Below are positions 13,272 to 22,109 of a stretch of DNA of 35,816 bases, piece by piece. The DNA comes from Candidatus Rokuibacteriota bacterium (GTDB lineage: Bacteria; Methylomirabilota; Methylomirabilia; Rokubacteriales; CSP1-6). The notes beneath the pieces were generated by a model. That model worked only from the letters and a program-made list of their open reading frames with translations, was not told the DNA's origin and did no database searches. Location of the stretch: positions 1 through 35,816 of the forward strand of contig QHSV01000096.1 in NCBI GenBank assembly GCA_003221655.1, read 5' to 3'. Each line of letters starts with the position of its first letter. The stretch's first letter is position 1. Made by a program: the position numbers and the translations under genes.

Positions 13272-14441
13272 ATGCGGCGTAGAGTCGTCTTCGTCGCCTG
13301 TCTTCTGCTCCCCTCTGTCGCGCTCGCCCAGCCGCTGTTCGGCACGCCGCAGGATCCGCTCGCAGGATCCCGGGTCTTCGGCGCGAAGGGCTGCGTCAAG
13401 TGTCACACGATCAACGGGGTCGGCGGCGAGGGCGCGCCTGATCTTGGCCGCATCCGGCGCCCGCGCTCGTTCTACGATCTCGCGACCGCCATGTGGAACC
13501 ACGCGCCGCGCATGGCCGAGCGGATGGCGGAGCTCGGCATTCCCAAGCCCCAGCTGGACTCGCGCGAAGCGGGGGACCTCGTTGCATTTCTGTTCACGGT
13601 CGACTACTTCGATCCTCCCGGCCGGGTGGACGCCGGCCGGCAGCTCTTCACGGAAAAGCGCTGTGTCGTCTGCCACCAGGTCGGCGGCACTGGCGGCGTC
13701 GTGGGGCCGAACCTCGATTTCCTGAAACAGTACGGCTCTCCGATCTTCCTCGCCACCGCCATGTGGAATCACGGTCCCCAGATGTCCGAGGCGATGCAAG
13801 CCAGGGGAATCGCGCGGCCCACCTTCAAGGACGCCGAGCTCCGAGACCTGATCGCCTACGTCAACTCGGCCTCGCCGGTGTGGCCGCAGGGGCCCCTGTA
13901 CGTCCTGCCGGGCCGAGCGACCGAGGGCCGCGTGCTCTTCGCGCAGCGGCGCTGCGCCGACTGCCATGGTGCCGCCGGTCAGGGCGGCAAAGTCGGGCCC
14001 GACCTCGCCGACCGCAGTCTTCAGCGGAGCCCGAGCCAGTTCGTCGCCGCCATGTGGAACAAGGCCCCGGCGATGCTCGAGGCGATGAAGCGCCGGGCGG
14101 TCCCGCTGCCCCGACTCCAGCCGGAGGAGATGGCCGACATCGTCGCCTACCTCTATTCCGTTCGCTATTTCCAGTCCGGCGATCCGAGGAACGGCGTGCA
14201 GGTGGCGGTGTCCAAGGGGTGTCTCGGTTGCCACTCGCTCCACGGAGAGCGGGGCAAGACCGCGAGCGACCTCGCGCGCGCCAAGGGACTGGACTCGCCC
14301 GCAGCCGTGCTCGCGGCGTCGTGGAACCATGTCGTCGTCACAGCGCCCCCGTCGGCGCGCACGAAGGCGCCGTGGCCCGAGCTGGGGGCCGCAGAGATGG
14401 CCGATCTCGTGGCGTATCTGCAGTCACTCAGGCGACCGTAG
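13272..14441 (+). CDS. Exported multi-domain cytochrome c with four CXXCH motifs (four tandem class-I-like domains)
   Basis: Signal peptide VVFVACLLLPSVALAQ; GCVKCHTI, RCVVCHQV, RCADCHGA, GCLGCHSL; repeated MWN[HK]xPxM and DL[VI]A[FY]L segments. Confidence 0.9.
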   Translation: MRRRVVFVACLLLPSVALAQPLFGTPQDPLAGSRVFGAKGCVKCHTINGVGGEGAPDLGRIRRPRSFYDLATAMWNHAPRMAERMAELGIPKPQLDSREAGDLVAFLFTVDYFDPPGRVDAGRQLFTEKRCVVCHQVGGTGGVVGPNLDFLKQYGSPIFLATAMWNHGPQMSEAMQARGIARPTFKDAELRDLIAYVNSASPVWPQGPLYVLPGRATEGRVLFAQRRCADCHGAAGQGGKVGPDLADRSLQRSPSQFVAAMWNKAPAMLEAMKRRAVPLPRLQPEEMADIVAYLYSVRYFQSGDPRNGVQVAVSKGCLGCHSLHGERGKTASDLARAKGLDSPAAVLAASWNHVVVTAPPSARTKAPWPELGAAEMADLVAYLQSLRRP

Positions 14442-14443
14442 TG

Positions 14444-15727
14444 ATGGGCGCCGCGCGTCCGACGATGCCTGCTCTCCTGTTCGCCGCGATCGTCGGGTGG
14501 GCGGTACCCGCCACCGCGCAGCCCACGCGGCAGGCGGAGGGCTGCGTGGCGTGCCATCTCGAGACCGGCGACGACCGGCTCGTGAAGCCGGCAAAGGCTT
14601 TCGCCGGGGACATCCATGCGGCGAAGGGTTTCGGCTGCGTCGCCTGTCACGGTGGGGATGCCAAGCAACAGGGGATGGAGGCGATGGATCGGGCCCAGGG
14701 CTACGTCGGCAAGCCCGACCGCCAGCAAGTCGTGCAAGTCTGCGGCCGGTGTCACGCCGACGCACGGTTCATGAAGCAATACAACCCGTCGCTGCGCGTC
14801 GATCAGGTCATCGAGTACGCCACGTCGGTCCACGGCCGTCGGCTCCGGGAGCTGAACGACCCGAAGGTCGCGGTTTGCACGAGCTGCCACCCCGCCCACT
14901 CGATCAAGCCACCCTCGGACCCGACGTCGAGCGTCCATCCGCTGCGGGTCGTCGACACGTGTGGCACTTGCCACGCAGATGCCAAGTATATGACCGGCTA
15001 CAGGATCCCGACTGACCAGCTGTCGAAGTACAAGACGAGCGTCCACTGGAAGACCATGTCGGCGAAAAGCGATCTGTCGGCCCCGACCTGCAACAAGTGC
15101 CACGGCAACCACGGCGCCGCACCCCCCGGAGTCTCCTGGGTGGGCACCGTCTGTGGCCAGTGCCACACCGTGATGGCGGAGCTCTTCACGAAGAGCCCCC
15201 ACGCGAAGGTCTTCGCCGCGATGGGAGTGCCTGGCTGCGTCACCTGCCATGAGAGCCACGCCATCCAGGAGGCTGGTGACGAGATGCTCGGACTCAGAGA
15301 CAAGGCCGTGTGCGCGAGCTGTCACTCGGCGTCCGACAAGGCCGGGAAGAGCGCGGCCGAGATGCGGGCCCTCATCGACTCGCTCAGGAATGAATCCGAC
15401 AAGGCGCGCGCGATCCTGCGCCAGGCGGAGCACGCGGGGATGGATGTCAGCCAGGCCCAGTTCGACCTGAACGAGGCCAAGGGCGCTCTCGTCAAGGCCC
15501 GCGCGGCCGTCCACGCGTTCGCCGTGGATGCCGTGAAGAAGGAGACGGACGCCGGGCTCGGCGTCAGCGCGAAGGCCCATGCCCGGGGTGTCCGAGCGCT
15601 CAGGGAGCTCCAGTTCCGAAGGGCGGGGCTCGTGGTATTCCTGGTGATCATCGTGGCGCTCATCGCCGCGCTTGTCCTCAAGATCCGCCAGCTGGAGCGT
15701 CGGCAGCAGTCACGAACGGGAGGCTGA
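14444..15727 (+). CDS. Membrane-anchored multiheme cytochrome c with nine CXXCH motifs
   Basis: CVACH, CVACH, CGRCH, CTSCH, CGTCH, CNKCH, CGQCH, CVTCH, CASCH; C-terminal helical region and TM segment [19 protein letters not shown]. Start at ATG 14444 (or GTG 14441); the longer ORF from 13493 is a frame artefact. Confidence 0.9.
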
Positions 15728-15742
15728 GCGCGGAGGCGCCAC

Positions 15743-16195
15743 ATGGACCAGACGCTCGAGGGGCTCACGACCCGACGAGGCTTCGTCAACTGGCTGCTCG
15801 GCACGAGCGCCGGAGCGTTCCTGCTCTCGGTGCTGTATCCGGTTGGCCGCTACCTGGTCCCTCCGAAAGTGGGCGAGTCCACGGCCGCGGCGGTCACGCT
15901 CGCGATCAAGCCCGACGACGTGCGACCGAACACAGGGTTGGTCTTCAAGTTCGGCAGCCGGCCGGCGATCCTCGTCCGCTCGCCGACGGGCGAGCTCCGC
16001 GCGTTCTCGGCCGTGTGCACCCATCTCAACTGCACCGTGCAGTACCGGCCCGACCTGAGCCATATCTGGTGCGCGTGCCACAACGGGCACTTCGACCTCA
16101 ACGGCCAGAACATCGCCGGTCCGCCCCCTCGGCCGCTGGACGGCTTCGTCGTCAACACCCGCGGCAACCAGATCGTGGTGAGCAAGAGCGCCTGA
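15743..16195 (+). CDS. Rieske [2Fe-2S] protein of a cytochrome bc/b6f-type complex
   Basis: N-terminal twin-arginine [12 protein letters not shown]; cluster motifs CTHLNC and CACHNGHF. Confidence 0.92.
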
Positions 16196-16197
16196 GC

Positions 16198-17292
16198 ATG
16201 GCCGTGTCCGAGACGCGCCACGGTAAGCTCCGGACCTGGCTCGATCAACGCATCGGGTTGGCGGACCTCGAGAAGCTCGCGAGGAAGAAGCAGGTCCCGG
16301 TCCACCGTCACGGCCTCTGGTACTACTTCGGCGGAATGACGCTCTTCCTGTTCGTCGTTCAGGTGGCGACCGGCATCCTGCTGCTGCTCTATTACCGGCC
16401 GAGCGCCGAGGAGGCGTACGAGTCCATCCAGTTCCTGATGGCCGAGGTCGAGTTCGGCTGGTTGATCCGCTCCATCCACGCGTGGTCGGCCAACCTGATG
16501 ATCCTCGCGTTGTTCGTCCATCTCTTCAGCGTGCTGCTCCTCAAGGCGTACCGCCCGCCGCGCGAGGTGACGTGGCTCTCGGGAATGGCGCTCCTGGGCG
16601 TGGCGCTGGCCTTCGAGTTCACCGGTTACCTCCTGCCCTGGAACGAGCTGGCCTACTTCGCCACGAAGGTGAGCACGGAGACCACGGGCGCCATCCCGCT
16701 GGTCGGTCGCTTTCTCCTCCGGCTGCTTCGCGGGGGCGACGAGGTGACCGGCGCGACGCTCACGCGGTTCTACGGTATCCACGTCGCCGTTCTCCCGGCG
16801 CTGGTCACGCTCGCCCTGGGCCTCCATCTGTATCTGGTCCATAAGCACGGGATGAGCGTGCCGCCCGGCGTCGAGCGCGAGGACGCTCCGCGCTTCATGC
16901 CCTTCGTGCCGAACTTCCTCCTGCGTGACGTCGTCGGCTGGCTCTCGGCCGTCGCCATCCTGGCGGCGCTGGCGGCCTTCCTCCCCGCCGAGCTGGGGAA
17001 GAAAGCCGACCCGTTCGCGCCGGCGCCGGTGGGTATCAAGCCCGAGTGGTACTTCGTGTTCATGTTCCAGACGCTCAAGTACCTCCCGGGTCACATCCTG
17101 GGTATCGAAGGGGAGATCGTCGGCGTCGTCGGCTTCGGCCTCGGCGGGGTGCTCCTCCTGCTCACCCCGTTTCTCGACCGTCGAGCCGTGCGCGGCGAGC
17201 CGAGCCCGCTGTTCACGTTGATCGGGATCGCATTGATCGTGTACGTGCTGGCGCTGACGTATCTTGGCTACACTGCCAGTCCCACGAAGTGA
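16198..17292 (+). CDS. Cytochrome b (b6-like, N- and C-terminal parts fused) of a bc-type complex
   Basis: [15 protein letters not shown] and [16 protein letters not shown] heme-ligand helices; [27 protein letters not shown] (PEWY motif). Confidence 0.92.
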
Positions 17293-17311: not shown

Positions 17312-18166
17312 GTGAGACCGAACCGCCCCAAAGCCGAGCCCTCTCCAGGCGCGCGTCACTGGCCCGTGGCGTCTCTCGCCGCCGCGGGACTCGTCCTATC
17401 CGCGTACCTGGCGTGGACCAGGTGGGCGGGCGCCGTCGCGCTCTTCTGCGAGAGTGGGAGCGGCTGCGACGTCGTCCAGGCCAGTCGCTACGCGGTCTTT
17501 CTCGGTGTCCCGACCGCGGCGTGGGGCGCGGTCCTCTACGCGGCGGTGCTCGCCCTGACTCTGGCGGGCACGACGCCCAGGCGCTGGACGGCGGCCTACG
17601 CGCTCGCGGTCGTCGCCACGGCGTTTTCCGCGTACCTCACGTACATCGCGCTCGGCGAGTTGCACGCCGTCTGCCCGTACTGCCTCGCCGATGCGATCAT
17701 CGCTCCGGCCCTGCTCGTGACGCTGCTCCTCCGCGGCCCGACCGGCGCCGGCCGCCGGTCGGCGGCTCGGGCGGGCCGCCTCGTTGCGATCGGCGCGTCG
17801 ATCGCCGTCGCGACCGTGATCTTCGCCGCCGGCGTCTTCGTGACGGGTGCGCCCACCGCTCCCTCGACATATCAGGAGGCGCTCGCGCGTCATCTCGCCG
17901 ACTCCGGTGCGGTCTTCTACGGTGCATACTGGTGACCCGCGTGCGGGGAGCAAAAGGCCCGGTTCGGGCCCGCGGCGGCGCTCCTTCCGTACGTCGAGTG
18001 CGATCCCCAAGGCCGCGGCGCCGCGCCGGCGCGGTGTGAGACTGCGGCCGTGCGTCGTTATCCGACCTGGCTCATCGCCGGACAGCGCTACGAAGGCGTC
18101 CTGACCCTGGACGAGTTGACCCGCGCCTCGGGGTTCGCCATCCGCGATGCGCCGCGCTCGCGCTAA
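17312..18166 (+). CDS. Candidate selenoprotein: VKOR domain fused to a thioredoxin-like domain, in-frame TGA (Sec) at 17933-17935
   Basis: VKOR core: FCESGSGCDVVQASRYAVFLGVPTAAWG, CPYCLADA. After TGA the same frame reads PACGEQKARFGPAAALLPYVECDPQGRGAAPARCETAAVRRYPTWLIAGQRYEGVLTLDELTRASGFAIRDAPRSR, then TAA at 18164-18166. The ORF track stops at 17935. TGA occupies the first CxxC position of the Trx-like domain (YGAYW[C]xxC). Confidence 0.75.
17945..17986 (+). promoter_or_regulatory. Putative bacterial SECIS hairpin downstream of the in-frame UGA
   Basis: Upper stem GGCCCG (17956-17961) / CGGGCC (17965-17970), loop GUU (17962-17964). Lower stem GGGGAGC (17945-17951) / GCUCCUU (17980-17986), separated by an internal loop. 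Confidence 0.55.
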
Positions 18167-21470: not shown

Positions 21471-22109
21471 TCAATGGGCCCGAGGATGCGGTAGGAGGCG
21501 CTCGACGAGTGCTTGCATCTCGTCACTGTTCCATTGGCGCGCGCCCATCGCCATGCCGGCCACCTCGCCGCCCGGCCGGACGATAAAGGTCGCCGGGAGG
21601 GCCGTGACCCTCCAGCGGTCGGACGTCTTCGAATCGGGGTCGAGGAGGATCGGAAACGTGAGCTTCAAGTTGCGCACGTAGGGCTCGAGGAGCGCTCTCG
21701 GCGCGCCGCGATCCACGGAGACGCCGACCACGACCAGCCCGCGGTCGCGGTGCCGCCGCCACAGCGCCTCGAGCGAGGGCATCTCGACGGTGCAGGGCTG
21801 GCACCAGGTCGCCCAGAAGTTCAGAACGACGAGCTTGTCGCGATGGTCCGTCAGCGAAACGCGACCGCCGTCGAGGGTGAGGAGCGCGAAGCCGGGGGCC
21901 TGCTGCCCCTCCTTCAGCTCGACGACCCCGGCCTTCTCGAACGGGTCGAGGACCTGCGTGGCCGCGCCGTGGTGGCCGCCGTCCTGGCCCGGCCGGCGCA
22001 CCGGCAGGACCCAGACGACGCCGCCCAGGATGACGACGGCGAGGCCGGCGCGGATCAGCGTCTGTCGCCTGCTCGCCCCGAAGATCGCGTCAGACGCCCA
22101 GCTTTTCAC
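21471..22109 (-). CDS. TlpA/ResA-like membrane-anchored thioredoxin-domain protein
   Basis: N-terminal TM; LVVLNFWATWCQPCTVEMPSLEAL; VTALPATFIVRPGG. Confidence 0.9.
   Translation of the reverse strand: MKSWASDAIFGASRRQTLIRAGLAVVILGGVVWVLPVRRPGQDGGHHGAATQVLDPFEKAGVVELKEGQQAPGFALLTLDGGRVSLTDHRDKLVVLNFWATWCQPCTVEMPSLEALWRRHRDRGLVVVGVSVDRGAPRALLEPYVRNLKLTFPILLDPDSKTSDRWRVTALPATFIVRPGGEVAGMAMGARQWNSDEMQALVERLLPHPRAH

Follow-up and report, generated by a model that had tools for sequence, protein, structure and literature searches.

A predicted selenocysteine-containing VKOR-thioredoxin fusion enzyme in Rokubacteria and other bacterial lineages

Results

An in-frame UGA codon in a VKOR-thioredoxin gene

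We analysed a 35,816-nt stretch of DNA from a Candidatus Rokuibacteriota bacterium, called here the window. It contains a gene for a VKOR-thioredoxin fusion that begins 19 bp downstream of the stop codon of a cytochrome b gene and carries an internal UGA codon (Table 1). Translation of the window placed the GTG at 17312, the TGA at 17933-17935 and the TAA at 18164-18166 in one shared frame, with 76 sense codons between the TGA and the TAA. An earlier note on this DNA, made from the sequence alone, had described a single in-frame TGA located exactly on the first Cys of a C-terminal thioredoxin (Trx) motif (W-U-P-A-C); the 76 open codons after this TGA would be missed by standard ORF calling. 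Translation confirmed this description, the residues encoded past the TGA being exactly those given there, and standard gene calling does stop at this codon. The GC contents at codon positions 1/2/3 are 0.75/0.63/0.84 after the TGA vs 0.70/0.62/0.87 before it; the region 3' of the TGA keeps the coding signature of the 5' part. A scan of the window for other open frames interrupted by TGA gave no second candidate, most of them being gene ends or antisense shadows.

Table 1. Features of the window and the selD gene of the same genome
Feature	Position	Strand	Basis or remark
c-type cytochrome, four Cytochrom_C domains (context)	13272..14441	+	Pfam PF00034
Multiheme c-type cytochrome and Rieske protein genes (context)	14465..16195	+	Pfam
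Cytochrome b (bc/b6f type), immediately upstream gene (context only)	16195..17292	+	Pfam PF00033
VKOR-thioredoxin selenoprotein CDS (predicted)	17312..18166	+	GTG start, TAA stop, 284 aa with Sec208
VKOR membrane domain, residues 17-137	17360..17722	+	Pfam PF07884, E 1.1e-22
Loop pair Cys46/Cys52 (= Cys50/Cys56 of Synechococcus VKOR)	17447..17467	+	Alignment to 3kp9; invariant in 34/34 Sec forms
Quinone-side active-site CxxC, Cys121/Cys124 (= Cys130/Cys133)	17672..17683	+	Alignment to Synechococcus VKOR; invariant in 34/34
C-terminal thioredoxin-like domain, ~residues 186-284	17867..18163	+	3kp8 match, structure model
UGA codon, predicted Sec208 in U-P-A-C	17933..17935	+	Counterpart of Cys209 in Synechococcus VKOR
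Predicted bacterial SECIS hairpin GGCCCG-GUU-CGGGCC	17956..17970	+	All 20 clade A Sec genes
TlpA/AhpC-type periplasmic thioredoxin (WATWCQPC)	21471-22109	-	~3.3 kb from Sec-VKOR
selD (L039)	G000:C256:799-1743		Complete, UGA at the usual Sec site near the N-terminus

Domain composition and fold of the read-through protein

In a profile search, the read-through protein aligned over its full length with the structures of the Synechococcus VKOR-thioredoxin fusion (E 4e-64; about 1e-64 for 3kp9, 4nv2 and 4nv6). Its AlphaFold model has a mean pLDDT of 78, and the top PDB matches in Foldseek were 4nv6, 4nv5, 4nv2 and 3kp9, with an E value of 1e-17 and a TM of 0.71-0.76 for 4nv6. The presence of a four-helix VKOR domain is supported by both the PF07884 match and the Foldseek matches to 4nv6 and 3kp9, and the Trx-like domain superimposes on the isolated Trx domain 3kp8 with a TMt of 0.90. 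The protein thus shares with the Synechococcus fusion (3kp9, 4nv2, 4nv5, 4nv6) the domain order, the eight redox positions, ~38% identity and the fold. In contrast, the Trx CxxC motif has a predicted Sec in place of Cys209 and reads UPAC here vs CPHC there: its first Cys is replaced by the UGA, and the second (C211) is kept. The second conserved pair of the Trx-like domain is Cys230/Cys242. As the earlier note had claimed, the other cysteines of the Trx domain and both VKOR Cys pairs are retained; these seven redox cysteines are invariant in all 34 Sec genes identified below.

UGA and Cys codons alternate at one position in homologous genes

Among 59 related genomes we found 13 full-length homologues, 3 with Cys at the column of Sec208 and 10 with exactly one in-frame TGA, located at that column. 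A scan of GTDB genomes gave 80 loci, 12 of them with TGA and the remainder with TGT or TGC at the site; the 12 TGA loci belong to Rokubacteria and also to Nitrospirota and deltaproteobacterial lineages. In a survey by phylum, TGA was present in 21/24 matching genomes of Methylomirabilota, 6/23 of Nitrospirota (the phylum of locus L070), 2/3 in the phylum of the Desulfobulbaceae locus L100 and 3/7 in that of the deltaproteobacterial L091. The Sec-VKOR family is much wider than Rokubacteria.

Removal of duplicates left 34 distinct homologues, all aligned with a single TGA at the Sec208 column, eight invariant Cys/Sec positions and no second stop; the base following the UGA is C in each of them. 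All non-TGA homologues aligned at this column (71 in the tree set) have Cys, encoded by TGT or TGC. The earlier note had held that the read-through frame could hardly be open by chance, and had named decay downstream of the TGA in homologues as an outcome that would refute the Sec reading. The first point is upheld by the recurrence of the TGA at the same column, in most of the first homologues and in 34 distinct genes overall, and no such decay was seen, the Trx domain being intact in the 34 genes.

Within the genus of the window genome the distribution of the gene is patchy, as Sec-VKOR was absent from all eight same-genus genomes searched (G001-G008). Two other kinds of matches were recorded. 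One Sec-VKOR genome has a second match restricted to the VKOR part (L144; G133:C7:6580-7089), a possible paralogue. Loci of the same class (L014-L023, family f5) gave VKOR-domain matches at 32-37% identity within open frames of ~555-605 residues; they represent a different, longer VKOR fusion in another Methylomirabilota family.

Sec genes form two clades

In a tree of 102 proteins, the Sec genes fall into two clades with Cys genes between them. Clade A (20 genes) corresponds to Methylomirabilota (Rokubacteria), and clade B (14 genes) comprises Nitrospirota, Desulfobacterota and another deltaproteobacterial group. At least two label changes are needed on the tree, and the starred branches also require two.

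A single clade grouping all Sec genes was rejected by the AU test (p 6e-7). Caution is needed here, since reversion to Cys is possible and long branches are present.

Predicted SECIS hairpins differ between the two clades

A predicted SECIS element, which the earlier note had not examined, is present downstream of the UGA. With the U of UGA as nucleotide 1, the clade A hairpin spans nucleotides 24-38, and the loop G of the window SECIS is nucleotide 30. All six pairs form in 20/20 genes, the only variation being a change from G-C to G-U at the closing pair. In columns of conserved residues, the entropy of synonymous codons is 0.13 bits in the hairpin vs 0.95 elsewhere in the gene (permutation p<5e-5). 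The hairpin of clade B, GAACAGA-AGNN-UCUGUUC, spans nucleotides 16-33 and has seven pairs in 14/14 genes, with a synonymous entropy of 0.23 vs 1.17 elsewhere (11 genes in the entropy test). The corresponding dip is much weaker in the control clades of Cys genes (0.64 vs 0.79 and 0.91 vs 1.33). The clade B stem is closed by the wobble base of codon +8, the most telling position of the SECIS. All 14 genes have T there, whether they encode D, S, A, F or V at this codon, vs 6/69 of the Cys genes (p=1.5e-11; the sequences are related, and the p value overstates their independence).

Bacterial SECIS elements are located immediately downstream of the UGA and have a small apical loop containing a G (PMC1088965). 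Both hairpins fit this published description, the G being the first base of the loop in clade A and the second in clade B.

Folding energies were less informative. Hairpins of 23-24 nt fold better than shuffled sequences, with z scores of -2.2 for clade A (the 23-nt hairpin of the window) and -3.8 for clade B; the 44-nt segment of the window, taken as a whole, folds no better than shuffles (z -0.16). As the folding energy of 44 nt does not discriminate in the GC-rich clade A, we relied on synonymous-site conservation. Compensatory base changes are almost absent from both hairpins; thus, the RNA evidence is one of constraint, i.e. frozen synonymous sites, and not of covariation.

The EQKxLF codons, at positions +5 to +10 past the Sec/Cys site, pair naturally, and a partial hairpin arises even in Cys homologues. 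A clade B-like hairpin, GAGCAG...CUGUUC, can partly form in Cys genes, of which 2/69 make all seven pairs. The presence of a hairpin alone was therefore not used as proof. It is possible that the sequence at these codons was pre-adapted to SECIS formation.

The tree does not settle whether there were two gains or an early gain followed by losses. The dissimilarity of the two hairpins favours two gains, a view that we hold with moderate confidence given several long branches.

Sec machinery genes in the window genome and its relatives

The earlier note had proposed a search of this genome for selA, selB, selC and selD, with a mixed outcome: selA, selB and a UGA-containing selD were found, and neither a covariance model nor similarity to a tRNA-Sec from the same genus revealed tRNA-Sec in this assembly. 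The selA gene, adjacent to selB, is partial: contig C519 ends within it, leaving residues 162-454. Relatives have tRNA-Sec ~1.3 kb upstream of selA, i.e. past the end of that contig; since the contig breaks inside selA, the absence of tRNA-Sec is expected from the assembly. When compared with two relatives, SelB (L038; G000 contig C519, 7500-11082) is ~68 residues shorter through an in-frame gap that includes the end of the G domain. A fault in the assembly, a MAG of 557 contigs with a contig end close to the gap, may be responsible, but it cannot be distinguished from a real loss. Because of the missing tRNA-Sec and the SelB gap, decoding in this exact MAG is unproven from its own sequence.

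SelA is encoded in 11/12 named Sec genomes vs 10/28 Cys genomes (Fisher p=0.0015; 40 named genomes). There is a single Sec genome without SelA (G059; same contig as G029, 81%-complete MAG). The selD gene of the window genome itself appears to code for a selenoprotein, and nearly all complete selD genes of the 59 relatives also contain one TGA.

If the UGA is decoded, the hairpin ~20 nt downstream, together with SelB, tRNA-Sec and SelA/SelD, would direct the insertion of Sec at 17933-17935.

Possible function and gene neighbourhood

In Synechococcus VKOR, electrons flow from the substrate to Cys209-Cys212, then to Cys50/Cys56, Cys130/Cys133 and the quinone, and characterized VKOR-Trx fusions form disulfides (PMC3800646). 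As all positions of this relay are present, with Sec in place of Cys209, we infer a quinone-coupled, disulfide-forming enzyme whose selenolate is the substrate-facing nucleophile. Within the U-P-A-C motif of the Trx-like domain, Sec208 would act as the exposed nucleophile. If the protein works like the Synechococcus enzyme, the Sec208-Cys211 selenenylsulfide would oxidize substrate proteins at the outer face of the membrane, and the electrons would move on through the loop pair Cys46/Cys52 and Cys121/Cys124 to the membrane quinone.

Genes for cytochrome b, Rieske and c-type cytochrome proteins are found near Sec-VKOR in several, but not all, clade A genomes, and this neighbourhood was not found in the Nitrospirota regions checked. 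Given this patchy link, the gene context only hints at function. In one genome (locus L172; G050:C3, 4221-14918), Sec-VKOR lies among genes for multiheme c cytochromes, a cytochrome b561-like protein and an MtrB/PioB porin, which suggests an extracellular electron-transfer gene cluster. That periplasmic or extracellular cytochromes are clients of Sec-VKOR is plausible, but it is a guess, the substrates being inferred only. The TlpA/AhpC-type thioredoxin encoded nearby in the window is a possible redox partner.

Alternative readings

The exchange between UGA and Cys at one column across many genomes, the conservation of the partner cysteines, the constraint at the RNA level, the fold and the Sec machinery genes are observations. 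In the absence of expression, 75Se or mass-spectrometry data, the actual translation of the UGA as Sec in the fused enzyme is an inference, which we nevertheless consider very likely to be correct. Only one draft MAG of this organism was available and no reads were inspected, so that a sequencing or assembly error, or a pseudogene, had to be envisaged; however, the same TGA occurs in independent assemblies from several phyla without other frame damage. Given this recurrence, a miscalled base at 17933 is very unlikely; error or pseudogene is refuted as an explanation and retains hardly any weight. Reassignment of the whole code, with UGA read as Trp or Cys, is refuted too and deserves slightly less still. 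We found no evidence for it, the earlier note had judged it unlikely for a reason that stands, namely that TGA ends other genes of the window (20/29 likely ones), the column holds Cys and not Trp in other homologues, and Sec machinery is present. Recoding of UGA as Sec is generally incomplete, which makes some truncated product likely, and standard gene calling ends the gene at the TGA. If the codon were a true stop, the product would be a VKOR-only protein and the downstream frame either a relic or a Trx domain with its own translation start. This is most improbable in view of the intact and strongly conserved Trx frame in 34/34 genes, the RNA hairpin with its frozen synonymous sites and the Cys found at the site in every other aligned homologue. 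The remaining possibility, that the Sec-VKOR family is real but that the Sec system is decaying in this species, leaving a truncated VKOR here, is unlikely, if less so than a true stop. It would account for the shortened SelB and the missing tRNA-Sec. However, the contig with selA-selB ends inside selA, where tRNA-Sec would follow upstream, and the 204-bp in-frame loss near a contig end of a fragmented MAG is possibly an assembly fault. SelB is otherwise intact, selD has its UGA and an intact frame, the SECIS hairpin and the Trx domain of the VKOR gene are undamaged, and most genomes of the same genus have full SelA, SelB and SelD.

Granting Sec insertion, the direction of electron flow is a separate question, and the disulfide-forming, quinone-reducing activity is inferred by homology only. 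The enzyme might instead be mainly reducing, passing electrons from quinol or another donor through the selenenylsulfide to substrate disulfides, e.g. so that the haem-binding CXXCH motifs in the multiheme cytochromes encoded nearby stay reduced. Selenenylsulfides are usually more reducing than disulfides, and c-type cytochrome genes occur near Sec-VKOR in several genomes. In contrast, every cysteine of the oxidizing relay is kept, and the fusions characterized so far form disulfides (PMC3800646). A reducing role, which competes only with the oxidase part of our interpretation, thus seems rather unlikely without being negligible, and we consider the oxidase direction probable.

Discussion

We propose that the gene represents a new selenoprotein family built on a known enzyme architecture, with no earlier report in the literature searched. 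VKOR is missing from the 119 families and subfamilies of prokaryotic selenoproteins listed in a 2026 review and is not mentioned in its text (PMC13188914); there is no mention of it in a 2022 review (PMC9312934) or in the 2008 GOS survey (PMC2398784) either. NCBIfam (June 2026) has only ordinary VKOR models for this protein, and no selenoprotein model matches it. Nothing relevant came out of literature searches combining VKOR with selenocysteine or selenoprotein, or Rokubacteria with selenoprotein; subscription papers and preprints lay outside their reach.

Known bacterial selenoproteins with UxxC motifs include a Sec thioredoxin, DsbA-like and DsbG-like proteins and a thiol:disulfide interchange protein (Table 1 of PMC13188914). 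The protein described here resembles them in its Trx fold, in a CxxC-type motif whose first residue is a predicted Sec and in a predicted SECIS just past the UGA, but none of them is listed as a VKOR fusion. Similarly, the presence of selA, selB and selD and of a hairpin with a G in a small apical loop shortly past the UGA conforms to the bacterial Sec decoding system; the two hairpin types in two clades, and the failure to recover tRNA-Sec in this assembly, set it apart.

In the most far-reaching interpretation compatible with the data, two independent events, with two different SECIS hairpins, brought Sec to the substrate-facing thiol of a membrane enzyme that generates disulfides and is linked to quinone. 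Sec would then serve, unusually, in an oxidase of protein folding and in a family that has not been reported, possibly specialized for the maturation of extracellular multiheme cytochromes. We regard this full scenario as evenly balanced between right and wrong.

The coding of Sec by TGA in this family recurs in dozens of uncultured bacteria, and standard annotation cuts every Sec-VKOR gene short. In many Rokubacteria and Thermodesulfovibrionia, the enzymes of oxidative folding are thus probably misannotated as VKOR proteins without their Trx partner. The two clades, whose hairpins differ, lend themselves to a natural comparison of the ways in which a SECIS can be built over one protein motif (EQKxxF). 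Sec is best known in reducing enzymes, whereas here it would be found at the substrate-facing thiol of an enzyme presumed to form disulfides in secreted proteins. What selenium brings to such an enzyme, be it speed, resistance to over-oxidation or another direction of electron flow, is a testable question.
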